From Bacteroidota bacterium (GTDB lineage Bacteria > Bacteroidota > Bacteroidia > Bacteroidales > FEN-979), in contig JAPLDH010000026.1 in NCBI GenBank assembly GCA_026391355.1, positions 1-64,000 on the forward strand: DNA of 64,000 nt, read 5' to 3'. Below, in pieces: positions 6,646 through 51,071 of the stretch. Under the pieces are notes generated by a model, which did no database searches, was not told the origin of the DNA, and saw only the letters and a program-made list of their open reading frames with translations. Each line of letters starts with the position of its first letter. The first letter of the stretch is position 1. A program made the position numbers and the translations under genes.

Positions 6646-9045
6646 TTAGAGATCTATCATGATGCCTATGGCAGGTAAGATCGTACCAGCAATATTTGAA
6701 ATGGTCCGTAACTCATAACGCCGAAGGCCTTTATCATCCGTATAGATCCCAATGGTACCATCAGCCCGCGTATTCACCAGCAAATCCGGTTGCTGCGCTT
6801 TGAAATTCAGGACATTCTGAACATCCAGGTAGATCATCAGGGACCATTTTTTAAAGAAAAAACTTTTATCAACCCTGATGTCAAGCTGGTTAAATGATTT
6901 TAAACGTAATGAATTAAACTTTGTATAATCAAGATATCCTCTGCCTTGGACATTCCATGCAATGACAAGGCTTGATTTATCCGAATCCCATGGAGTATAG
7001 GGCGCTCCACCTGCAAATCTCCATTTCAATCCGGTTTGCCAGTGATGATGAAACTTCCTGCCAACGGTTACATTAAATAAATGCCGGTTATCCCAGGAAG
7101 AGGGAATATATTGATTGGAAAAATTTGTAAACTCGCTACGGACATATGTATAGGACATAATGATGTTGAACTCAAAAAGATCGTTATTTCTGTACAAAAG
7201 TTCGAAACCATAGGCCCTTCCTTTTGAATCCGGGCTCACAGGTTCATCGCCGGTGACACCATAATCCGAACCTTTGCTGGCGAGCGAAACTGAATCGCGC
7301 AGTGAAAGCGGGTAATGTCCATATAGTTTCAGAAACCCTTCCACTGAAATTTTTGAGAGAAGCGTGGGTTGATATTCCATCCCAAGGACGATATGGTCGC
7401 AGGAAATATATTTTATTCCGGTTGAATCATTTATCAGTTTACCATTGTTATTCCGGAAGCCAAGTGTTGTATAAGCCGGCAACTGGTAATATCTTCCCGT
7501 GTTGAAGTTGAGAAAAACCTTATCCGCCACGATTGCATAAGAGGCCGAAAAACGGGGAGAAAATTGGTTAAGCAGGTTGCTCATCCTTTTTGAATAGTTA
7601 TTTGCATCCATGCGGAAGCCCAATGAAAGATCAAGTCGCTCATTGAAAAATGACTTATTCACCTGTGCGAAAATATTCCATTTGAATAATCCCAGCGATG
7701 AATTGTAATCAATGATCTTTAAGGAATCACCCAGGAAAATCTTTTGATAGGTTTTGTTCGTGTATTCTGCATATTCCAATCCGGCGCCATAGGTAACATT
7801 CCATTTTACAAAATCCATATAGTTTTCATAACGTAATTTATTGCCGGTTTCCTGCGATTTATACTTTAAGAGCAGACTGTCGGGAACTACCTGGTTGTTT
7901 TTGTATTTATTTTCTTCATTATCCAGCATATTCCTGCTGAACACCCATGTTCCATAGCCTTTTGCACGAAAATGACGATACACCAGACCGAATGTATAGC
8001 TCCACTGATCATAATTCGGTAAATACCCGAGCAGATATTTTTGTGTTTCGTCAGGGTTTTTTATACCGGTATTTAATTTGGAATGATCGAGTGCGCCAAT
8101 GGAAATGAAAGTTAGCTGATTATTCCGGTTGAGGTCGATCTTGTATTTCAGCTGGTAATCATTGTATGTGGGCAGGAATGGCAGTTTCAACGCCGTAAAG
8201 AGCAATTGAAGGTAAGAACGGCGTACTGAAAATATAAGCGAGGAATTCCGGGTGACAGGACCATCCAGGGTCAGTCCGACATCACTGGAACCAAGGGTGA
8301 ACCTTCCTGCAAACTTTTCTTTATTGCCTTCAACCTGTCGCAATTCCAGGATAGAGCTCAGGGCATCCCCGCGACGGGCAGGAAAAGCGCCGGAATACAA
8401 TTCCACCTCCCGGATGAAATCAACATTGATGATACCAACCGGTCCCCCTGAAGCACCCTGGGTCGCAAAATGATTGATATTCGGTATTTCAACCCCATCA
8501 AGAAAATACCGGTTTTCACCGGGACCTCCTCCACGGACAATCACGTCGTTCCGGAAGGAAACAGAAGTTCCGACCCCGGGCAACGATTGGATTACCTTTG
8601 AAATATCACGGTTGGAACCCGGACTCTTTTCAATCTCCTGGATGGATAACTTCTGCATGGACACAGGACTCTCCTCCTTTCTTGCCACGGAAGAGGGTTT
8701 TACCTCCATTGTCGGCAATGTGAATGCCTGTTCATCCAGCGCGAGGTCAAGGATCACGGGGTGTGAGTTGGTGACCAGGAAGTCTTCGCTGATGTATTTC
8801 CTGTATCCGATGTACGTTGCAATAAGATGAACATAGCCCGGCTCAACTTTTAAAATGATAAAATTTCCCTTATCATCAGTGGTAGCCCCAAAGGTTGGCC
8901 TTCCGTCAATGATGATGTTTACAAAAGGCAGCGGCTCATTGTTCTTATGATCAAATACCCTTCCCTTGATAATACCTGTCTGTGCAAATGTAAAAACAGG
9001 CAAGTACAGGATCCAAAGTCCCGTCAACATATTTCTAAATTTCAT
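6646..9045 (-). CDS. TonB-dependent outer-membrane receptor
   Basis: A 799-residue outer-membrane transporter. It has a signal peptide (1-21), then a carboxypeptidase-regulatory-like domain at about 22-110 (GIIKGRVFDHKNNEPLPF), a plug domain at about 125-240 (IQSLPGVG, VIVRGGGPGENRYFLDGVEIP) and a C-terminal 22-strand-type barrel ending in IGIMIDL. No SusD partner is adjacent, so it is not a SusCD glycan importer; siderophore, cobalamin or peptide uptake are all possible. The opposite-strand ABC transporter starts ~125 bp away, and a TACTTTTG box (9072-9065, minus strand) lies just upstream as a candidate promoter. Confidence 0.92.
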   Translation of the reverse strand: MKFRNMLTGLWILYLPVFTFAQTGIIKGRVFDHKNNEPLPFVNIIIDGRPTFGATTDDKGNFIILKVEPGYVHLIATYIGYRKYISEDFLVTNSHPVILDLALDEQAFTLPTMEVKPSSVARKEESPVSMQKLSIQEIEKSPGSNRDISKVIQSLPGVGTSVSFRNDVIVRGGGPGENRYFLDGVEIPNINHFATQGASGGPVGIINVDFIREVELYSGAFPARRGDALSSILELRQVEGNKEKFAGRFTLGSSDVGLTLDGPVTRNSSLIFSVRRSYLQLLFTALKLPFLPTYNDYQLKYKIDLNRNNQLTFISIGALDHSKLNTGIKNPDETQKYLLGYLPNYDQWSYTFGLVYRHFRAKGYGTWVFSRNMLDNEENKYKNNQVVPDSLLLKYKSQETGNKLRYENYMDFVKWNVTYGAGLEYAEYTNKTYQKIFLGDSLKIIDYNSSLGLFKWNIFAQVNKSFFNERLDLSLGFRMDANNYSKRMSNLLNQFSPRFSASYAIVADKVFLNFNTGRYYQLPAYTTLGFRNNNGKLINDSTGIKYISCDHIVLGMEYQPTLLSKISVEGFLKLYGHYPLSLRDSVSLASKGSDYGVTGDEPVSPDSKGRAYGFELLYRNNDLFEFNIIMSYTYVRSEFTNFSNQYIPSSWDNRHLFNVTVGRKFHHHWQTGLKWRFAGGAPYTPWDSDKSSLVIAWNVQGRGYLDYTKFNSLRLKSFNQLDIRVDKSFFFKKWSLMIYLDVQNVLNFKAQQPDLLVNTRADGTIGIYTDDKGLRRYELRTISNIAGTILPAIGIMIDL

Positions 9046-41476: not shown

Positions 41477-42169
41477 ATGACCAAATTCCATCATACTCTA
41501 AATTGCAAGGATTGCAAAAGCAAAGGGATCATTTTTAAATCACTTTGCAACGAAGAGTTAGACATGATCAATCAGAACAGGTTTGAAGTTAGTTTTAAAG
41601 CGGGAGAGATCATGTTCAAGCAAGGAACACCATCACCGCATTTCCTTTGTCTGACCAAAGGTCTTGCAAAAATTTATATTGAAGGCCGTGGAAAAAACCT
41701 GATCCTTGCCCTTGTCAAACCCGTAGAATATATATTCGGTCCGGGTGTATATGTGGATAACCGCCATCACTATTCGGCAGCAGCCGTTGAAGATTCAACT
41801 GCCTGCCTCGTCGATGCGGCAACATACAAACTCTTAATCCGTCAGAATCCCGATTTTGCTGATGAGTTTATCAAACGTGTCAGCAATCAGGCAATATATA
41901 ACTTCGAACAGGTTATCAGTCTTACCCAAAAACAAATGCCGGGCAGGATCGCTGATGCCCTGATATACCTTTCCGAATTTGTATATGATTCAAATCCCTT
42001 CGAAATGAGCTTATCCCGTCAGGATCTTGCTGATATTTCAGGAATGTCGAAGGAAAGTGCAATCCGCATCCTGAAAGACTTCAAAGACGAAGAAATACTG
42101 TCAATTGATGGTAACTCCATAAATATTCTCAACCCGCGTCTTCTTAAGCAGATCAGCGAAACCGGCTGA
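41477..42169 (+). CDS. Crp/Fnr-family transcription regulator
   Basis: A 230-residue regulator with a cyclic-nucleotide-binding-type beta-roll (about 20-130), a dimerisation helix and a C-terminal winged helix (LSRQDLADISGMSKESAIRILKDF). Cysteines at positions 10, 13, 24 and 110 recall the cluster ligands of E. coli FNR (three N-terminal Cys plus one in the beta-roll), although spacing differs (CxxC then ten residues to the third). An oxygen- or redox-sensing Fe-S cluster is therefore plausible. It lies directly upstream of the cytochrome operon, which it probably controls. Confidence 0.88.
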   Translation: MTKFHHTLNCKDCKSKGIIFKSLCNEELDMINQNRFEVSFKAGEIMFKQGTPSPHFLCLTKGLAKIYIEGRGKNLILALVKPVEYIFGPGVYVDNRHHYSAAAVEDSTACLVDAATYKLLIRQNPDFADEFIKRVSNQAIYNFEQVISLTQKQMPGRIADALIYLSEFVYDSNPFEMSLSRQDLADISGMSKESAIRILKDFKDEEILSIDGNSINILNPRLLKQISETG

Positions 42170-42479
42170 TTTTATTTTTTATTTAGACTCTTTAAAATAT
42201 ATTTTCCATTTTTCGTTGAGCACCCTGGTTTTTAGATTATTTTTGTTATTTAATTAACAAAACTGACATCTACAAATTGATATATGTCAGTTTCATGATG
42301 ACAAATATCACTATTCAGTACGCATTATCTCAATTAGAATAGTAATACATCTCAACATTGTCAGAATTAGCGAATTGATTTCTTAGATATCTTTGTCCCT
42401 TGTTAACAAAATAACTATTAATGTTAATAAATCAGGCAAAAAACTCAACAAGTATTATTATTAACCAAACCAGAATCGT
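42170..42479. other. Regulatory intergenic region upstream of the cytochrome operon
   Basis: A 310-bp A/T-rich gap with no gene. It contains the inverted-repeat operator at 42260-42303, a further TGTCAG at 42359-42364, and a TATCTTTG box at 42388-42395 about 85 bp before the cytochrome start. No TTG sits at the ideal distance from that box, so activator dependence is plausible. Confidence 0.6.
42260..42303. promoter_or_regulatory. Candidate Crp/Fnr operator: inverted repeats of TGACA/TGTCA
   Basis: AAACTGACAT (42260-42269) and ATGTCAGTTT (42284-42293) form a perfect 10-bp inverted repeat with a 14-nt spacer. A third half-site TGACA (42299-42303) is inverted relative to the second. The region lies between the Crp/Fnr gene and the multihaem cytochrome gene. 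Confidence 0.55.
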
Positions 42480-43523
42480 ATGAAAAAAATTACTTCCTTC
42501 CTGTTTGTTATCGGGGCCGCATCATTATTTGCAGGCCTTGTATTAACCGGTTGTACAAAATCAGGTCCGGCTGGTAAAGATGCCAATGCGACTTGTACAC
42601 AGTGTCATACTTTCGCAGATACAATCGTTGCCAAGATCTTCCAGTATGATGCCTCAAAGCATGCATCGGGAAGCACTGCATTTGAAGGCACTAATAAATC
42701 ATGTGCTCCGTGTCACGCCAGTCAGGGTTTTGACGAAGTAGTGGTAACCGGTGCAGATACAACTAAAACGGGTATCGCAGATGCAGCTCCCATCAATTGC
42801 CGTACATGCCATAAGATCCATAATTCATATACAAGTTCCGACTGGGATTTAAAAACAACTGCTGCATTTTCACCAAGGTATGATCACACTGCTTCAATCG
42901 ATTTAGCTTTTAACGGAGGTTCTTCCAATCTTTGCGCAAGATGCCACCAGGCAAGAGCAGCCAGCCCTGGACTGACCAACCCAACAAGTAATGTGGATTC
43001 TATCAAGATCACAAGTGGCCGCTGGGGACCACACCATGGCCCACAGGGGCTTATCATGGCCGGTAAAGGCGCTTTCGAAGTAGGAGCTGCAGCATTCGGA
43101 AACTCTCCTCACCGTGATCAGGCTGCTTGTATGACGTGTCATGGCGGATATGCCCAGGGTAATTTTGTAGGAGGACATACCCTGACCATGACAACCACTT
43201 CCGACAATTTAGGCGACAACTATACTGTTTGCAAACCTTGTCATGCAAGCGCCAGTGCAACTACCGGTTTTAATATCGGCGGTGTTCAGGATGAAATTGA
43301 AGGCATGATGCAGGATCTCAAGGTAAAACTTGCAGCTGCAAATGTGCTGGATACAACCACAATGTTCATCAAGGTGCCGAAATATTACAAACAAAAACAA
43401 CTTGCCGTATATTGGAACTTCCAATTGATTGAAGCTGACCGTAGTATGGGCGTTCATAACTACCAATATACATACGACATCCTGCAATCCGGAATTGATT
43501 ACATGAACAGTCTGGGGTTATAA
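42480..43523 (+). CDS. Hexahaem c-type cytochrome lipoprotein
   Basis: A 347-residue lipoprotein; LTGC puts the lipidated Cys at 25. Six CxxCH haem sites are visible (CTQCH, CAPCH, CRTCH, CARCH, CMTCH, CKPCH), with extra His residues that could be distal ligands. The C-terminal 60 residues are haem-free and helical (HNYQYTYDILQSGIDYM). It is predicted to sit on the outer or inner membrane facing the periplasm or surface, and to pass electrons to or from the complex encoded downstream. A terminator follows, so it may be expressed apart from, and above, the later genes. I cannot assign it to a named reductase family. Confidence 0.88.
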   Translation: MKKITSFLFVIGAASLFAGLVLTGCTKSGPAGKDANATCTQCHTFADTIVAKIFQYDASKHASGSTAFEGTNKSCAPCHASQGFDEVVVTGADTTKTGIADAAPINCRTCHKIHNSYTSSDWDLKTTAAFSPRYDHTASIDLAFNGGSSNLCARCHQARAASPGLTNPTSNVDSIKITSGRWGPHHGPQGLIMAGKGAFEVGAAAFGNSPHRDQAACMTCHGGYAQGNFVGGHTLTMTTTSDNLGDNYTVCKPCHASASATTGFNIGGVQDEIEGMMQDLKVKLAAANVLDTTTMFIKVPKYYKQKQLAVYWNFQLIEADRSMGVHNYQYTYDILQSGIDYMNSLGL

Positions 43524-43544
43524 ATCTTCCTGACCTGAAGAAAA

Positions 43545-43572
43545 GGCTTCAGAAAATCTGAAGTCTTTTTTT
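43545..43572 (+). terminator. Rho-independent terminator after the hexahaem cytochrome
   Basis: GGCTTCAG / CTGAAGTC is an 8-bp stem (one G-T) with an AAAAT loop, followed directly by seven T (43566-43572). Confidence 0.8.
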
Positions 43573-43649
43573 CAATAGAATGAAGTATAAAATAAAAAAT
43601 GGAATTATCCCCAGAACAATTGTTGGGATCAATTTCCTCGAAAACTCGA

Positions 43650-43692
43650 CTCCGTCCCCTTCTTTTTGAAAAGTGAAGGGGTTTAGGGGTTG
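43650..43692. repeat. CCCCTTC...GAAGGGG palindromic element
   Basis: CCCCTTC (43656-43662) pairs with GAAGGGG (43675-43681), followed by TTTAGGGGTTG. It resembles the dispersed palindromes elsewhere in the window in layout but with a different core. Confidence 0.6.
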
Positions 43693-43732
43693 ATTATATT
43701 AAACATAGTTTATTAATTTAAAATTTCTGATC

Positions 43733-44116
43733 ATGCAAAAGTGTAAACTAAGAAATGCCGTATTGGTTATCTTTGGAATTTTAGTTCTTGCAGCATGCAC
43801 AAGCAAGACCATTGAGGCACCCAGCATTGCCCCTCCAACAAAGGATTATAAATTCAGTACGGATGTACTGCCACTTTTCACTCAACATTGCGCTACCGCC
43901 GGATGTCATTCAGCAGGAAATACTCCCCCTGATCTTTCCGCAGCAAATGCTTACCATTCTTTGGTTTCCAATAATCTTTTTGATATCCAAAACCCAACTC
44001 AAAGTGATATCTATAAGGTTGTTACTTCAAGTGGTAGTATGAACTCACATCTGCCAAATTCAACAGATCAGTTGACTATTCTGTACTGGATTCAGCAAGG
44101 TGCATTAAACAATTAA
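43733..44116 (+). CDS. Small cytochrome-c-like lipoprotein with CX4CH motif
   Basis: A 127-residue lipoprotein; LAAC places the lipidated Cys at 22. The mature part starts with the FSTDVLPLFTQHC pattern of Planctomycete-type cytochrome c domains. The only haem-like site reads CATAGCH, i.e. CX4CH instead of CXXCH; CX4CH haem attachment is known in a few cytochromes. MNSHLP could supply a Met axial ligand. It sits 18 bp before the DUF5777 barrel gene and is probably part of the same transcript. An envelope electron carrier is likely. Confidence 0.75.
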   Translation: MQKCKLRNAVLVIFGILVLAACTSKTIEAPSIAPPTKDYKFSTDVLPLFTQHCATAGCHSAGNTPPDLSAANAYHSLVSNNLFDIQNPTQSDIYKVVTSSGSMNSHLPNSTDQLTILYWIQQGALNN

Positions 44117-44134
44117 TTATACAATAATCTTAAA

Positions 44135-45046
44135 TTGAATGATATGCGTATATTTACAATTGTAACCGGGAAGCAAACACTACTTTGCTTGTTGTTTTTC
44201 TTAACTGGAGCAGGATTACTGTTTGGCCAGGATTCGACCGCTGTAGGAGGAGAAAAAAAGCCCCTTGCCAAAACTCCCTTTGAAAGCGGATATTTTATTG
44301 CTGACCAAACCGTGGCAATGCCACCTGCAAAAACACTTGAGTTAATCATTCAGCATGATTTCGGGACTATTCAAAACGGCTGGACAGATCTCGCGGGTCT
44401 CTGGGGAGCCTCAAATATCAGATTCGGTCTGAATTTCACCATTACCAAAAACCTGATGATCGGTTTGGGAACAACCAAAAATAAAACCATTCAGGACGGT
44501 CAGATCAAGTACACTTTTGCCCATCAGCGGGTAGATGGATTTCCTTTGACTATTGGCTATTACGGAAATATGGCACTAAACTGCACCAACAAATCCGTGT
44601 TCGGAAACAACTATAAATTTACCGACCGGTTTTCCTTTTTCCATGAGTTGATGATCGCCCGCCGGTTTGGAAAGAGGGTTTCATTACAACTTGGGGTTGC
44701 ATATGTTCATTATAACACTGTCGACTCTACCATGAAGGAGACACATAAATATTCACAGTATAAAAATGACAACATCAATATTTCCGGGATCGGAAGACTT
44801 AAAGTAACACCCCAGACCTCCATAATTTTAAGTTATTCCCAACCGGTAATGACTTATCTGAATACTACACCCTGGCCTAATTTCGGTGTTGGGGTTGAAA
44901 TCTCCACAAGTACGCACTGCTTCCAGATATTCCTGACTTCTGCACAGGGGTTGGTACCCCAGGAAACAGTCATGTACAACAATAATAATCCATACAACGG
45001 AGCTATTCTTCTAGGGTTCAACATAAGCCGTTTGTGGAGCTTTTAA
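44135..45046 (+). CDS. DUF5777-family outer-membrane beta-barrel protein
   Basis: A 303-residue exported protein with a signal peptide (FLTGAGLLFGQ end). The mature part is amphipathic beta strands with the family start FESGYFIADQTVAMPPAKTL-type sequence and a C-terminal aromatic residue (ISRLWSF), consistent with a 10-14 strand outer-membrane barrel. The start may be ATG 44144 (MRIFTIV). DUF5777 barrels often neighbour cytochromes; here it lies between two c-type cytochrome genes and could host or dock a cytochrome at the outer membrane. That role is inference. Confidence 0.8.
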   Translation: MNDMRIFTIVTGKQTLLCLLFFLTGAGLLFGQDSTAVGGEKKPLAKTPFESGYFIADQTVAMPPAKTLELIIQHDFGTIQNGWTDLAGLWGASNIRFGLNFTITKNLMIGLGTTKNKTIQDGQIKYTFAHQRVDGFPLTIGYYGNMALNCTNKSVFGNNYKFTDRFSFFHELMIARRFGKRVSLQLGVAYVHYNTVDSTMKETHKYSQYKNDNINISGIGRLKVTPQTSIILSYSQPVMTYLNTTPWPNFGVGVEISTSTHCFQIFLTSAQGLVPQETVMYNNNNPYNGAILLGFNISRLWSF

Positions 45047-45091
45047 AAACAGAATTTATTATCCATGTTTAACCAAAAATCAATTAATCAG

Positions 45092-45517
45092 ATGAAAACA
45101 ACACAGAAAGTAATTACCCTCCTGATTACTGCAGCATTTGCCGTAGTTTTCATGCTCGGCAACAATGCTTTGGCACAAGCCAAAGGAAAAGCCTGGCCGG
45201 TACCCGACAAGGACAAAAATCTGAAAAGCCCTGTAAAAGCAAGTGACCAGAATGCCATCGCCAATGGCAAAGATCTCTGGGCAAAACATTGCAAATCATG
45301 CCATGGAAGCAAAGGTCTCGGTGACGGTCCCAAGGCTGCTACCCTGAAAACCAATCCGGGTGACTTTACCACCAAAGATTTCCATGCATTTACCGATGGT
45401 GAACTTTTTTTCAGGACTTCTATTGGAAGAGGCGACATGCCGGCATATGACAAGAAGATTCCCGAAGCAAAAGATCGTTGGGATCTGGTTGCTTATATTC
45501 GCACTTTCAAAAAATAA
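45092..45517 (+). CDS. Monohaem cytochrome c
   Basis: A 141-residue periplasmic cytochrome. The start at 45092 (MKTTQKVITLL) gives a standard signal peptide ending ALAQA; an ATG at 45065 would add nine polar residues. One CKSCH haem site lies in the GKDLWAKHCKSCHGSKGLGDG context and the Met ligand is in GDMPAY, a class I cytochrome c. It probably shuttles electrons between the membrane complex and the outer-membrane components. It is followed by a strong stem-loop. Confidence 0.93.
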   Translation: MKTTQKVITLLITAAFAVVFMLGNNALAQAKGKAWPVPDKDKNLKSPVKASDQNAIANGKDLWAKHCKSCHGSKGLGDGPKAATLKTNPGDFTTKDFHAFTDGELFFRTSIGRGDMPAYDKKIPEAKDRWDLVAYIRTFKK

Positions 45518-45534
45518 TTCTCATTAAATTCATT

Positions 45535-45573
45535 GAAAAGGGTGTTTATATTATGTTTGTAAACACCCTTTTC
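45535..45573 (+). terminator. Strong stem-loop inside the redox operon
   Basis: GAAAAGGGTGTTTA (45535-45548) pairs perfectly with TAAACACCCTTTTC (45560-45573) over 14 bp with an 11-nt loop, and the right arm includes TTTT. It separates the monohaem cytochrome gene from the membrane complex genes. Confidence 0.75.
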
Positions 45574-45604
45574 TCTTATTCTCTTACTATTTATTCAGGT
45601 TATT

Positions 45605-46633
45605 TTGAACAGCTCGAAAGTCAGGCCATCATGGGTGGTCATTGTTTTAATCGTCTTTACAATCATCCTGATTTCTGTTTCATACTCCTTCGATTCAAAA
45701 GCGATTGTACCTGGCGGTGATACCCTAAAAAGTACACAAAAAACAAATTCAAAATCATTTGCAGAATTCAAGAATGCTCAAGAAAACGAGAGTTGCCTTA
45801 AATGCCACGGTCAGTCAAAATACTCATATGAAAATAACGAATCCGGTAAACAGGTTTTCAAACGAATGTATTCCGAACTGATCCTGACCCGGACAATATT
45901 TTATGAGTCAAATCACCGGAATTTTAAATGTATCGACTGTCATTCAGAAGATTATAAAACATTTCCACATGCCGGCAACCTTCGTATGGCATCAAAACCT
46001 AATTGCCTCGACTGCCATGGCGGCGATGAAATGTATGCAAAATATCATTTCGAAAATATTGAGAAAGAATTCCAGGAAAGTGTTCATTCTGAGAAGCACA
46101 GCCAGGATTTTACCTGCTGGATGTGTCACAATGGACACACCTATAAGATAAACGCCCGTACTAATGAAAATATTAAGCAAACCATTATTTATGACAATGC
46201 CATCTGCCTTACATGTCATGGCGATATTACAAAATATCAGTTATTGACAGATAAGGAAAATCCAAATTTAATTAAGAAACATGAATGGTTACCAAACCAA
46301 CAATTACATTTTAAATCAGTTCGTTGTATTGAATGTCATACAAAGAAAATCAATGACAGCACACTCGTTGGTCATAATATCCGACCCAAAGCGGAAGCAG
46401 TAAAAAAATGCGAGGAATGTCACTCATCCAATTCTGTTCTTCTGGCTGCTTTATATAAATATAAGATCAGGGAAACAAGAAATGCCAAAGGGTTTTTTAC
46501 AGGGATCATTACCAGTAATTCCTATGTTATCGGTGCAAACCGGAACTATTATCTGAACCTGCTTAGTCTTATTATTGTCGGGTTTGTGGTTGCCGGTATT
46601 GTAATACATACTGTTTTCAGAATGTTAAAATGA
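45605..46633 (+). CDS. Membrane-anchored heptahaem c-type cytochrome
   Basis: A 342-residue protein with an N-terminal TM (about 10-28) and a C-terminal TM (about 313-337), so the haem domain faces the periplasm. Seven CxxCH sites are seen (CLKCH, CIDCH, CLDCH, CWMCH, CLTCH, CIECH, CEECH). The start is TTG; no in-frame ATG or GTG exists between the upstream stop (45560) and the first TM. Its stop overlaps the cytochrome b gene by 4 bp (ATGA). The layout resembles multihaem subunits of Hmc/Ohc-type complexes and NapC/NrfH-linked systems. It should accept electrons from the cytochrome b and NrfD subunits. Confidence 0.9.
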   Translation: MNSSKVRPSWVVIVLIVFTIILISVSYSFDSKAIVPGGDTLKSTQKTNSKSFAEFKNAQENESCLKCHGQSKYSYENNESGKQVFKRMYSELILTRTIFYESNHRNFKCIDCHSEDYKTFPHAGNLRMASKPNCLDCHGGDEMYAKYHFENIEKEFQESVHSEKHSQDFTCWMCHNGHTYKINARTNENIKQTIIYDNAICLTCHGDITKYQLLTDKENPNLIKKHEWLPNQQLHFKSVRCIECHTKKINDSTLVGHNIRPKAEAVKKCEECHSSNSVLLAALYKYKIRETRNAKGFFTGIITSNSYVIGANRNYYLNLLSLIIVGFVVAGIVIHTVFRMLK

Positions 46634-47262
46634 CCTTTACTATGTCTGCAGAAAAACTATATCTATATCCTGTCTGGATTCGTCTCTGGCACCTGGTCAA
46701 TGCATTGTTCTGCCTTTCACTGATCATGACGGGGATCAGCATGCAATTTTCCAATCCTTTGGTTCCGATGATACGGTTCGACATCGCTGTTTCCATCCAC
46801 AATATAACGGGAATCCTGTTATCCATCAATTACATAGGGTTTTTACTGGGAAATCTTTTCACCGGGAACGGTAGAAATTATAAAATGGCATTCCCCGGAT
46901 TATCAACCCGGTTGAAATCTCAATTCCATTACTATATCAAAGGGATCTTTACCGGCGACCTGCCTCCTTTTCCCATCTCAATTGAAAAAAAATTCAACCC
47001 GCTGCAACAATTTTCCTATGTCGTTATCATGTATGTAAGTGTTCCCGTTCTTTTAGTAACCGGCTGGAGTTTGATGTATCCGGAAGTAATCCCTACCCGG
47101 TTCCTGAGCACGAGCGGTCTTCATTTAACTGATTTGTTGCATATATTGATCGGGTTTATAATTTCACTCTTCATGTTTGTGCATATTTATTTCTGCACCA
47201 TTGGAAAAACAACGGTCAGTAATTTCATGAGCATAATTAACGGTTATCATGAAACACACTGA
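46630..47262 (+). CDS. Cytochrome b561-type membrane subunit
   Basis: A 210-residue protein with four to five TM segments and the b-haem pattern of the Ni,Fe-hydrogenase/thiosulfate reductase cytochrome b family: LYPVWIRLWHLVNALF (His ligand), SIHNITGI, and the C-terminal HLTDLLHILIGF with two His plus MFVHIYF. It overlaps the heptahaem gene by 4 bp; an alternative ATG is at 46642. It is expected to move electrons between quinol and the periplasmic haems, like the NarI-like subunits of Hmc and Ohc complexes. Confidence 0.87.
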   Translation: MTFTMSAEKLYLYPVWIRLWHLVNALFCLSLIMTGISMQFSNPLVPMIRFDIAVSIHNITGILLSINYIGFLLGNLFTGNGRNYKMAFPGLSTRLKSQFHYYIKGIFTGDLPPFPISIEKKFNPLQQFSYVVIMYVSVPVLLVTGWSLMYPEVIPTRFLSTSGLHLTDLLHILIGFIISLFMFVHIYFCTIGKTTVSNFMSIINGYHETH

Positions 47263-47310
47263 TATATCCTTGAATTTCAATTCATATATCCTGTTTTAAT
47301 AGTTCATACA

Positions 47311-48270
47311 GTGGAAGAATCCAATGATAAAAAGAAAAAGTCCCGCAGAGAGTTTCTGAAAAAGGGGTTTTTAGCCGGCGCAGGTGTCGTTGCCGGAGGC
47401 AGTCTGATCGCTGCTTATGTTGATAAATCTGCACCGGAATCAGGGGAAAAAGTCAAAGCCCTCACCACCAATGGTGAAATCATAGAAGTCGATAAGGCAC
47501 ATATCAAGACTCCGCGGGTCTCGATTGAAGAATCACATAAAGGAATCCCTGGCCGGAAATTTGTGATGGTGATCGACTTAGCGAAGTGTAAAAATGCAAG
47601 AAAATGTGTCGAGGCATGCCAGAAAGGTCATTTCCTGCCGAAGAGTCAGGAATTCATGAAAGTCTATTTTCTCCAGGATTCTGACAAGTCAGCTCCTTAC
47701 TGGTTTCCTAAACCCTGTTACCACTGCGATAATCCTTTGTGTGTAAGTGTTTGCCCAGTTGGTGCAACCTACAAAAGAAGCGATGGCATAGTGCTGATCG
47801 ATAATGAAAGATGTATTGGCTGTAAATTTTGTATGACCGGGTGTCCCTATTCAACGAGGGTTTTTGCCTGGAAACATTACCCGGAATATGAAAAGGATGG
47901 ACAGCCCTATTCTCCGGAAGCCAGCAGCCCGGGTAAGGAGGGAACTGTTTCCAAATGTGATTTCTGTCCTGATCTTATTCGGATGGGTAAACTTCCCTAT
48001 TGCGCCCAGAACTGTCCCATGGGAGTTATTTATTTCGGGGATATCGATGAAGATACAGTAACAAACGGTTCAGAAACCTTAAAGTTCAGTGAACTCATCC
48101 GTGACCGGGCTGGTTACCGTTACCTTGAAATGCTGGGGACACGACCGAGCGTTTATTACTTGCCCCCGGTTGACAGACAATTCCCGGTAAACCGGGGATT
48201 TGAAGATCTTGAGGAGTCTGTGAAAAATAGATATAAGAATACACCTTACGGTAAAAATCATAAATTATAA
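47311..48270 (+). CDS. Tat-exported ferredoxin-like subunit with four [4Fe-4S] clusters
   Basis: A 319-residue protein starting with GTG; no in-frame ATG precedes the Tat signal (SRREFLKKGFLAGAGVVAGG), so it is periplasmic. Four Cys groups bind [4Fe-4S] clusters: CKNARKCVEAC, CYHCDNPLCVSVCP, CIGCKFCMTGCP and CDFCPDLIRMGKLPYCAQNCP. This is the electron-transfer subunit of complex iron-sulfur oxidoreductases (HmcB, PsrB, NrfC, TtrB type). The NrfD-like subunit gene follows after 3 bp. No molybdopterin subunit is linked. Confidence 0.93.
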   Translation: MEESNDKKKKSRREFLKKGFLAGAGVVAGGSLIAAYVDKSAPESGEKVKALTTNGEIIEVDKAHIKTPRVSIEESHKGIPGRKFVMVIDLAKCKNARKCVEACQKGHFLPKSQEFMKVYFLQDSDKSAPYWFPKPCYHCDNPLCVSVCPVGATYKRSDGIVLIDNERCIGCKFCMTGCPYSTRVFAWKHYPEYEKDGQPYSPEASSPGKEGTVSKCDFCPDLIRMGKLPYCAQNCPMGVIYFGDIDEDTVTNGSETLKFSELIRDRAGYRYLEMLGTRPSVYYLPPVDRQFPVNRGFEDLEESVKNRYKNTPYGKNHKL

Positions 48271-48273
48271 ACC

Positions 48274-49617
48274 ATGGAATATCAAAGTACCAAGGAAAAA
48301 CTTCTTCAAGAGGTTGCACCACACCTGGAAAGAACGACATGGGTAGCAAGGTTATGGATCTTCTTCCTGTTAGCCGTTATCGGTATCGGGGTTTATGCAT
48401 TTATCCAGCAGGTGACGAAAGGACATATCGTTACCGGAATGAGGGATAATGTGGTTTGGGGAATCTACATTGTCAATTTCATTTTCTTCATGGGGATGAG
48501 TTATGCAGGCGCTATCATTTCCGGTGCACTTCAACTTTTCAGGACGGAATGGAGAAAACCGATCATCCGGATGGCAGAGTACCTCGCTATTATCTCATTG
48601 CTCATCGGACCAGGATACATTCTTCTGTGCATCGGGCGTCTTGATCGTTTGCATTACCTGGTGTTGTTCGGAAGGATCCAATCCCCTATCACATGGGACG
48701 TGATTGCTATTTCCACTGATATTTTCGGTTGTTTGATCTTTCTTTATCTTTCCCTGCTCCGTGACATTGCTACATTAAGGGATTATACAGCGCTTAAGGT
48801 TCCAGCGTGGAAGAAAAAGCTATATTCCATACTTGCTTTGGGTTATACAGGAGCACCGGAACAGGAAATACGCCTGAAACGTGCAACTGATATTATGGCT
48901 GCAATGGTTATTGCCATCGCTATCATCGTTTACTCAGTATTGGCATGGATTTTCAGTGTCACCCTTCAACCCGGCTGGCACAGTACGATTTTCGGACCTT
49001 ATTTTGTGATCGCTGCCGTGTATTCGGGAACAGGCGTTCTTGTTATTACCATGTGGGTTTTCAGAAAAGCATATCACCTTGATCAATATATCACACGTAA
49101 GCATTTTGTTGCCATGGGGGTTCTAATGGTCATTCTGGCTGCATTGTTCGGATATTTCACTTTCAGTGATTATCTGACAAAATGGTATGGCTCTGAAAAA
49201 AATGATGAAAGCCTGATCCGGATTTTATTTTCAGAATATTATTGGCCATTTATCTTTTCAAATTATATCGGAGTTCTGATACCCTTGCTGGTTATAGGAA
49301 TCCCCAGGCTAAGAACGATAAACAACATCACTTTTTCTGCTCTTGTAGTGATCGTAGCTCTTTGGTTCAATCGTTACCTGATCGTAGTGCCAACATTGGA
49401 ATCACCTTACCTTCCTATCCAGGATTCGCGTCCTGAATGGCTCAATTATTCAGCTACCTGGGTTGAATATGCATTGCTTGCAGCAGGTATTGCCCTCTTC
49501 TGCCTGATGTTCACGATTGCCTCAAAATTTGTTCCGGTCATGAATATCTCTGAAATGTCGGAAACACCAAAGCCCGAGGAAGCTGTGTTGTTTCAATCGG
49601 AAGAATCATTACTCTAA
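48274..49617 (+). CDS. NrfD/PsrC-family quinone-interacting membrane subunit
   Basis: A 447-residue protein with about ten TM segments, longer than NrfD (about 320) and close to HmcC/ActC/DsrP forms. The VVWGIYIVNFIFFMGMSYAG segment and the LLIGPGYILLCIGRLDR loop are family-typical quinone-site surroundings. It starts 3 bp after the ferredoxin gene, so the two form a pair. It would oxidise or reduce menaquinone on the periplasmic side and exchange electrons with the four-cluster subunit. Assignment to the family is firm; the direction of flow is not. Confidence 0.92.
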   Translation: MEYQSTKEKLLQEVAPHLERTTWVARLWIFFLLAVIGIGVYAFIQQVTKGHIVTGMRDNVVWGIYIVNFIFFMGMSYAGAIISGALQLFRTEWRKPIIRMAEYLAIISLLIGPGYILLCIGRLDRLHYLVLFGRIQSPITWDVIAISTDIFGCLIFLYLSLLRDIATLRDYTALKVPAWKKKLYSILALGYTGAPEQEIRLKRATDIMAAMVIAIAIIVYSVLAWIFSVTLQPGWHSTIFGPYFVIAAVYSGTGVLVITMWVFRKAYHLDQYITRKHFVAMGVLMVILAALFGYFTFSDYLTKWYGSEKNDESLIRILFSEYYWPFIFSNYIGVLIPLLVIGIPRLRTINNITFSALVVIVALWFNRYLIVVPTLESPYLPIQDSRPEWLNYSATWVEYALLAAGIALFCLMFTIASKFVPVMNISEMSETPKPEEAVLFQSEESLL

Positions 49618-49654
49618 TAGTACTGAAAATAAAGTAAATATTCAAAATATTCAT

Positions 49655-50563
49655 ATGAAAAGCGTCAATTTAACCTCCTGCATTTTCATCCTGGTCTTTC
49701 TGCTGGTAATAAGCTCTGCAGTTTTTCCACAGGAAAAACAGGATTCATCCTCCTCAAAAACACCCAATATCACACTGAATTACCTGAATACATCGAACGA
49801 TACGATCATTCTTTCTGCCTCCGTTTCGATCAAACGGGAACTAGGTGTTTTTGCACTTCAGAACGCGGAGATAACATTTGAAGCTTCCGCTGGTGGCAAT
49901 GAATCAAAATTCCTGGGCAAGGTGAAGACTGATGTCGAAGGCAATGCAGTTATTAAGGTCGTGTCGAAGATTGGAATTCCTACTGATAAAGAAAGAAAAA
50001 CAATCTTTACTGCAAAATTCCCGGGTGGTGCCAGGTATCTTGCATGTTTTGAAAAAACATCGGTCAGACTGGCTAAAATCCTTGTTTCATTTGCCCAGGA
50101 GGATACAGTACGGGTCATTAAGATAAGCGCTTTCCAGGTTGAAAACGGAGTTCCCGGCAAACCATTGACCAAAGAAAAAGTAACGGTGTACGTTCCAAGG
50201 TTGTTCACACTTCTAAAAATCGGTGAGACCACTCTTGATGAAAATGGAAAAGGTCAGGTGGAGTATCCTGAAAAGCTCGTTGGTGATTCCTTGGGAAATA
50301 TTACCATCTATGCAAAGATCGAAGAGAATGATATATACGGCAATGTGCAGGGAAAATCATCCATAACCTGGGGCATTCCAAAGCAATATTTCCTGGCAGA
50401 GAGACCGGCAAGACAATTATGGACACCCGTTGCACCCATATGGATGATTGTCACCCTGATCATTATGCTTACCGGGGTATGGGCACATTATCTTTATGCT
50501 GTGTTTCAATTGATCATGATCAAACGTCACGCTCAAAAACTGCGTAACAATCCTCCATTATAA
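49655..50563 (+). CDS. Membrane-anchored protein with Ig-like periplasmic domains, function unknown
   Basis: A 302-residue protein with a signal peptide (about 1-25), two beta-sandwich-like segments (about 40-140 and 145-240; the TLDENGKGQVEYPEKLVGD pattern recalls transthyretin-like or Big_1 folds) and one C-terminal TM (about 262-288) with a basic cytoplasmic tail. It carries no haem or cluster motif. It is the last envelope gene of the redox cluster, 37 bp after NrfD, so an assembly, scaffold or docking role for the complex is the best guess. I do not recognise the family. Confidence 0.65.
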   Translation: MKSVNLTSCIFILVFLLVISSAVFPQEKQDSSSSKTPNITLNYLNTSNDTIILSASVSIKRELGVFALQNAEITFEASAGGNESKFLGKVKTDVEGNAVIKVVSKIGIPTDKERKTIFTAKFPGGARYLACFEKTSVRLAKILVSFAQEDTVRVIKISAFQVENGVPGKPLTKEKVTVYVPRLFTLLKIGETTLDENGKGQVEYPEKLVGDSLGNITIYAKIEENDIYGNVQGKSSITWGIPKQYFLAERPARQLWTPVAPIWMIVTLIIMLTGVWAHYLYAVFQLIMIKRHAQKLRNNPPL

Positions 50564-50588: not shown

Positions 50589-51071
50589 ATGAGCAATAAG
50601 AAAATCTCCAGTAAAGTCAGAAAAGCATTGGCCGAAGGAAAGATAAAGGAAGCAAACGGATTCCTTGGCAATGCTTATTCCCTCCGCGGGATCGTGGTAA
50701 AGGGTCAGCAATTAGGAAGGGTTTTGGGTTATCCAACCGCTAACCTTAATCTCCATGAAGAATCAAGGCTGTTTCTCGCCAATGGAGTATATGCAGTAAA
50801 TATAACCATTGATGGAAAGGAATATGGAGGAATGGCCAACATTGGTATCCGGCCTACACTGGATCAGCATGAATTGACAGTCGAAGTTAATATCTTCAGT
50901 TTCGATGGTGATATATACGGAAAGGAGATCCTCCTTCATTTTATTGAACGTATCCGGGATGAAAAAAAATTCGGTAATCTTGAGGAGTTAAAAGATCAAC
51001 TTTCAAGGGACAAGGAACATATTACAGAACTCTTATCCTCTGGGGTGCATTCTGATACCTACACCAAATAA
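50589..51071 (+). CDS. Riboflavin kinase (RibF C-terminal domain only)
   Basis: A 160-residue flavokinase that makes FMN from riboflavin and ATP. The protein starts with SNKKISSKVRKALAEG, the ISSxxIR end of the FAD-synthetase half of bifunctional RibF, and then has the complete RFK domain (GRVLGYPTANL, NGVYAVNI, ANIGIRPT, EVNIFSFDGDIYG). The ~170-residue adenylyltransferase half is absent and no remnant precedes it. It begins 26 bp after the last redox gene and may be co-transcribed. Either a separate bifunctional RibF exists elsewhere or FAD synthesis is split. Confidence 0.85.
   Translation: MSNKKISSKVRKALAEGKIKEANGFLGNAYSLRGIVVKGQQLGRVLGYPTANLNLHEESRLFLANGVYAVNITIDGKEYGGMANIGIRPTLDQHELTVEVNIFSFDGDIYGKEILLHFIERIRDEKKFGNLEELKDQLSRDKEHITELLSSGVHSDTYTK

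Follow-up and report, generated by a model that had tools for sequence, protein, structure and literature searches.

What kind of respiratory system is encoded by nine adjoining genes that combine haem lipoproteins, an outer-membrane barrel and inner-membrane quinone proteins in a bacterium of the Bacteroidales? The genes lie at 42480-50563, all on the plus strand, in a stretch of 64,000 nucleotides (hereafter the window; contig JAPLDH010000026.1 of assembly GCA_026391355.1), which lies on contig C74 of a Bacteroidota genome of 4.83 Mb (98% complete, 81 contigs). An earlier note, made from the letters of the window, had described these genes with their haem counts as a transmembrane redox conduit without a molybdopterin subunit, built on the plan of the Hmc, Ohc and Qrc complexes and leading from menaquinol to the envelope and possibly out of the cell; it had also proposed a neighborhood search and a phylogeny of the NrfD subunit. 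The gene inventory proved accurate, as the open reading frames, the CXXCH and CX4CH counts, the lipoboxes and the Pfam matches all agree (Table 1). The hexahaem gene c6 is followed by a gap of 209 bp, after which the genes are spaced by -4 to 87 bp. Taken together, the gene content, its conservation and the regulatory boxes suggest that the cluster probably specifies an oxygen-responsive, FNR-type respiratory relay from menaquinol to the outer membrane, with two quinol-oxidizing modules. In the first, the ferredoxin, NrfD and p10, a molybdenum-free set related to the ActB2/ActC portion of alternative complex III (ACIII), would oxidize menaquinol and hand the electrons to the monohaem cytochrome c1. 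In the second, the heptahaem cytochrome c7 and the di-haem cytochrome cytb, a split CbcL-like pair, would carry out a separate menaquinol oxidation at the inner membrane. The cytochromes of the periplasm and those anchored to the outer membrane (c1, the CX4CH lipoprotein and c6) would collect the electrons. Their partner in the outer membrane would be the DUF5777 barrel, and the electrons would exit to an acceptor located at this membrane or beyond it.

The order regulator-c6-CX4CH-DUF5777-c1-c7-cytb-ferredoxin-NrfD-p10 is kept within the same GTDB family. Because it recurs in a dozen relatives, at an NrfD identity of 74-87%, the arrangement is not due to chance. Nearly all named relatives are uncultured Bacteroidales, several of them from Lake Pavin. 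In a broad sample of Bacteroidota (390 genomes), nine genomes carry the ferredoxin (counted at E<1e-60), and in all eight carriers other than the window genome the CX4CH and DUF5777 genes adjoin ferredoxin-NrfD-p10; DUF5777 itself occurred in 151 genomes (39%), mostly in one to four copies. The individual parts are retained to different degrees: among 46 named loci with enough flanking sequence, p10 and c1 were each found in 44, DUF5777 in 37, the CX4CH gene in 33, the regulator in 19 and c6 in 17, and c7 plus cytb in only nine. Most Bacteroidota loci, including those of cultured Lutibacter species, possess ferredoxin-NrfD-p10-c1 without c7-cytb, and the same holds for wider loci in other Flavobacteriaceae and in Chitinophagaceae. 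Conversely, two otherwise similar operons (in L183 and L205) combine c7-cytb with an ImcH-like gene and lack ferredoxin-NrfD-p10, whereas L206, which comes from the family of L205, retains the NrfD module in an operon that is alike in other respects. ImcH-like genes also lie 3' of p10 in L068, L070, L073 and L105. Since c7-cytb and ferredoxin-NrfD-p10 are each found without the other, the inner-membrane set does not descend from a single complex. The ferredoxin, NrfD, the Ig (immunoglobulin)-like protein p10 and the monohaem cytochrome form a module of their own, which is scarce in Bacteroidota yet distributed widely among them. Given the presence of the ImcH-like gene where the NrfD module is absent, we read the quinol-oxidizing modules as exchangeable.

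This modularity bears on the alternative that c7, cytb, ferredoxin, NrfD and p10 move electrons across the inner membrane together, as one Hmc- or Dsr-like complex. The gene order c7-cytb-ferredoxin-NrfD does resemble DsrM/J/O/P, and the best NCBIfam model for the ferredoxin is DsrO (168.7 bits, with a cut-off of 200). Considering, however, the separate occurrence of the modules and the lack of a cytoplasmic DsrK/HmcF-like gene in the cluster, a single complex is unlikely.

The relationships of the NrfD subunit point elsewhere. Its closest solved relative by sequence is ActC (6f0k_C, 4.3e-56; 6btm_C, 6.1e-49), and neither the HmcC nor the NrfD model, both of which exist, matched it at E<=0.1. 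In a quick tree, supported by SH-aLRT (Shimodaira-Hasegawa approximate likelihood ratio test) values only, the window protein falls within a Bacteroidota clan (13-row family clade, 100; 28-row clade, 99) that is apart from ActC (including the ActC rows of Bacteroidota), from ActF and from the molybdenum-linked NrfD proteins of L037 and L038. That distant branch is the only one accompanied by molybdenum proteins. No molybdopterin subunit was found in any related operon examined, in line with the earlier note; a hidden partner of this kind was considered and ruled out, as the larger unlabelled frames in these operons are other proteins. The Ig-like protein p10, for which a fold search with the model gave only generic Ig-fold matches, is fused to NrfD in the paralogous loci L079-L083 and to c1 in L034, which ties it functionally to both. 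The NrfD::Ig-like proteins of L079-L083 and L087 (740-770 residues) are usually accompanied by ferredoxin, c1 and a DUF2339-like membrane protein of 12-15 helices, which also adjoins an NrfD gene on contig C70 of the window genome.

The fusion of c1 and p10 belongs to a caa3 oxidase operon of the window genome itself (L034, 1936-11407), in which a molybdenum-free ferredoxin-NrfD-[c1::p10] module lies with COX1, COX3, COX2, SCO1 and UbiA, and where it apparently stands in for complex III. We found no bc1 cytochrome b in this 98%-complete genome, and its only three NrfD genes lie in the oxidase operon (C27), beside a tetrahaem protein (C70) and in the window (C74), none of these loci being ACIII-like. 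The module is therefore the sole evident quinol:cytochrome c oxidoreductase of the genome, and the simplest reading of ferredoxin-NrfD-p10-c1 would be a molybdenum-free enzyme of that type.

The second module combines c7, with seven CXXCH motifs and seven further invariant His, and cytb, the gene of which overlaps that of c7 by 4 bp and in which four His are invariant, as many as two haems b require. Profiles of the two showed weak or no solved relatives. A fused c7::cytb homolog of 554 residues in L221 indicates that the pair is the CbcL/MtrH/MtoC architecture (PMC6295460) divided over two genes. The ImcH-like proteins inspected all have three N-terminal helices, six CXXCH motifs and one CX3CH motif, the layout described for ImcH (PMC6295460). 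The window genome encodes such a protein on another contig (C30), and in L223 an ImcH-like gene is grouped with cytb and with genes for a 13-haem and a 19-haem protein. Two further arrangements were seen beside these operons: adjoining the cluster in L206 (9704-12844) are a Rieske protein and then a 910-residue protein that joins a cytochrome b to an 11-haem domain, and the ImcH-containing cluster of L205 has as a neighbor (6990-8117) a split-Soret-like cytochrome that carries a type IX sorting tail.

The neighborhood extends beyond the nine genes that had been noted earlier, as it includes a Crp/FNR-family regulator with its boxes and, at the other end, a riboflavin kinase. Orthologs of the regulator are 68-77% identical and lie beside the cluster in the family; most of them have Cys at about positions 10, 13, 15 and 110, or equivalents. 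Fifteen of the 16 family loci have TTGA-N6-TCAA palindromes 5' of c6, and a tighter motif, fitted to these same loci but in keeping with the previously known FNR consensus TTGAT-N4-ATCAA, occurred 16 times in 17 family loci (326 kb) against 0.2 expected. Similar boxes lie 5' of several wider loci. Boxes of the FNR type stand at the promoters, as in an FNR regulon, and the cluster is apparently under FNR control with anaerobic induction.

Such induction is relevant to the direction of flow. Homologs of CbcL and MtoC have been reported in metal reducers and Fe(II) oxidizers alike (PMC6295460), and the relay might in principle run in reverse, from an outer donor into the quinone pool. This is very improbable, given the boxes, the reports on ImcH, for which quinol oxidation is the only function described (PMC6295460), and the oxidase-linked paralog, which implies quinol oxidation.

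How far the electrons travel outward depends on the reading of the envelope parts. The best solved profile match of c6 is OcwA (6I5B; PMC6703420) at 2e-12, with NrfA close behind, over some 130 residues only. No CXXCK motif is present in c6, and as its invariant distal His equal the haems in number (six), like those of c7 (seven), both cytochromes fit electron transfer and not catalysis. The DUF5777 model (predicted local distance difference test, pLDDT, 90) is a 12-strand barrel, and a fold search with it returned the 12-strand barrels FapF, COG4313, KdgM and NanC; MtrB was not listed, which by itself proves nothing. MtrB has 26 strands, and the modelled DUF5777 barrel does not have the width to enclose a multihaem cytochrome. 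In c6 and the CX4CH lipoproteins, the acidic motif for surface export that may follow the lipobox Cys was likewise looked for and is mostly absent: at least two acidic residues at positions +2 to +6 were found in four of the 30 c6 and nine of the 52 CX4CH proteins with a lipobox. The window genome may possess an extracellular cytochrome, considering that a multihaem protein on contig C44 (L233, 7444-8907) ends in a type IX sorting tail that narrowly passes the NCBIfam cut-off and narrowly misses that of Pfam; the inventory of multihaem genes for the genome is incomplete, since it was made by searching for paired haem motifs within one spacing range and missed c6.

Full extracellular electron transfer, in which the cytochromes and the barrel would serve external acceptors (insoluble Fe(III), humics or cytochromes secreted by the type IX system), is consistent with the split CbcL-like pair, with the exchange that involves ImcH-like proteins, with the OcwA match of c6, with the L223 grouping, with the tail of the C44 protein in so far as NCBIfam recognizes it, and with the origin of several relatives from ferruginous Lake Pavin (PMC6386445). 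It is nevertheless a tentative possibility, as the barrel is far narrower than MtrB, few of the lipoproteins have the export motif and the C44 tail misses the Pfam cut-off. More doubtful still is its most elaborate form, a complete Bacteroidota extracellular respiration without Mtr or Pcc, composed of exchangeable modules (a molybdenum-free ActC type, split CbcL and ImcH), a c6 of the OcwA/NrfA superfamily, a 12-strand barrel with the CX4CH cytochrome, and, beyond the cell, cytochromes secreted by the type IX system. Of the route proposed earlier, the part from quinol toward the outer membrane is upheld; the final step out of the cell is unproven.

The electrons could also end in the periplasm, where the cluster would load a cytochrome pool that serves cbb3, NrfA or some other reductase of the periplasm, with the barrel only a channel or anchor. 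The genome encodes cbb3 and caa3 oxidases as well as NrfAH, the paralogous module is linked to the caa3 oxidase, aerobic lineages carry the module, and elsewhere in Bacteroidota DUF5777 operons that lack NrfD encode YceI proteins as well as monohaem cytochromes (L188, L192, L186). Yet NrfA has its own NrfH alongside, the cbb3 and NrfA genes are not near the cluster, and a soluble partner would not need an outer-membrane-anchored hexahaem protein and a barrel; we regard a periplasmic end as conceivable but not as the probable outcome. The relay to the outer membrane that we favor has its own difficulties. Lutibacter, the other Flavobacteriaceae and the Chitinophagaceae are lineages known mainly as aerobes, which means that the core module is not confined to anaerobic or extracellular respiration; the regulator in the window departs from the Cys pattern of its relatives (C10, C13, C24, C58 and C110, with C24 replacing C15/16); and, where the relay is read as an extracellular route, the narrow barrel and the scarcity of export motifs count against it as well.

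Table 1. Features of the cluster and its flanks in the window
Feature	Position	Strand	Characteristics
FNR-type box TTGATATTTATCAA	41363-41376	+	5' of regulator gene; exact TTGAT-N4-ATCAA palindrome
Crp/FNR-family regulator	41477-42169	+	PF13545, PF00027; Cys 10, 13, 24, 58, 110
FNR-type box TTGATATATGTCAG	42277-42290	+	5' of c6; single mismatch to family motif
Second, weaker FNR-type box copy	42298-42311		5' of c6
c6, hexahaem lipoprotein	42480-43523	+	6 CXXCH, lipobox, six more invariant His; distant OcwA/NrfA relative
Monohaem CX4CH lipoprotein	43733-44116	+	1 CX4CH and lipobox; conserved adjoining DUF5777; no Pfam family
DUF5777 outer-membrane beta-barrel	44135-45046	+	Pfam DUF5777 1e-68; predicted 12 strands
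c1, monohaem class I cytochrome c	45065-45517	+	PF13442 4e-11; 1 CXXCH
c7, membrane-anchored heptahaem cytochrome c	45605-46633	+	7 CXXCH; hydrophobic helix at N- and C-terminus
cytb, b-type cytochrome	46630-47262	+	Ni_hydr_CYTB 1.6e-22; invariant His 21, 57, 171, 185
Tat (twin-arginine)-exported four-cluster ferredoxin subunit (FeS), 319 aa	47311-48270	+	Fer4_11 5.5e-22; N-terminal twin-arginine motif SRREFLK
NrfD-family quinone-binding subunit, ActC-like	48274-49617	+	Pfam NrfD 7.8e-31
p10	49655-50563	+	Two Ig-like domains between a signal peptide and a C-terminal membrane helix; no Pfam family; model pLDDT 90.9
Stand-alone riboflavin kinase	50589-51071	+	PF01687 5.8e-42; 25 bp 3' of p10

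The riboflavin-kinase gene is a conserved neighbor of the cluster in the same GTDB family. A flavin link to electron transfer is possible, and it is uncertain whether the kinase belongs to the system. The genome encodes a second flavokinase on contig C34, in a longer, RibF-type frame of 335 residues.

If the proposed relay is correct, it would define an ActC-based, molybdenum-free quinol:cytochrome c oxidoreductase that few Bacteroidota carry but that is spread widely among them, and a natural exchange between an ActC-type module and ImcH in otherwise similar operons. It would also provide a testable route for the respiration of uncultured Bacteroidota of anoxic lakes that lack an evident standard porin-cytochrome conduit, and would give DUF5777, on which no paper was found in the literature searched, a place in electron transfer.

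No published description of this combination of parts was found, and the parts are related to several known systems. DsrMKJOP, Hmc and Qrc share with the window a ferredoxin, an NrfD protein and a multihaem cytochrome c, in some cases with a cytochrome b. Their subunit models, however, were below cut-off or unmatched: for Hmc, HmcA scored 27.5 of 400 bits and HmcB 75.8 of 420, with no HmcC match; for Qrc, QrcC scored 117.8 of 400 and the cluster has no molybdenum gene (QrcB); for Dsr, DsrP scored 77.4 of 350, DsrO stayed below its cut-off as given above, and neither a DsrK/HmcF-like nor a J gene is present. Given these scores, the proximity to ActC and the separate occurrence of the modules, the earlier assignment to an Hmc/Ohc/Qrc plan is not supported. 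MtrCAB and other porin-cytochrome conduits likewise combine an outer-membrane barrel with haem lipoproteins, but the window has a 12-strand barrel, no decahaem core and no clear surface-export signal, and an Mtr-like conduit was rejected, the fold search having recovered 12-strand barrels. The resemblance to ACIII is closer, comprising the ActC-like NrfD, a ferredoxin similar to the ActB2 half, a monohaem cytochrome and a paralogous module with a caa3 oxidase. The cluster differs in lacking the molybdopterin-like ActB1 half (and thus the ActB fusion), the second NrfD (ActF) and the pentahaem ActA, in the place of which it has the heptahaem c7, and in possessing the additional membrane protein p10. 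CbcL, MtrH and MtoC of Geobacter and others are comparable by architecture, with a multihaem c domain and an HydC/FdnI-like b domain, unlike the window pair, which has seven haems and is split over two genes. ImcH of Geobacter is absent from the window and has its counterparts in the similar operons without the NrfD module and on contig C30. Finally, SirCD of Shewanella, likened by architecture only, joins a ferredoxin to an NrfD/PsrC-type subunit, and Cbc4 (CbcSTU) of Geobacter a ferredoxin to another membrane subunit; both feed a cytochrome pool without molybdopterin (PMC11434368), and an Ig-like subunit, a barrel and a CX4CH lipoprotein are not described for either. CbcT is an ortholog of DsrO, which the window ferredoxin also resembles, and in SirCD, which replaces CymA in Shewanella, there is a precedent for a ferredoxin-NrfD pair in such a role (PMC11434368).

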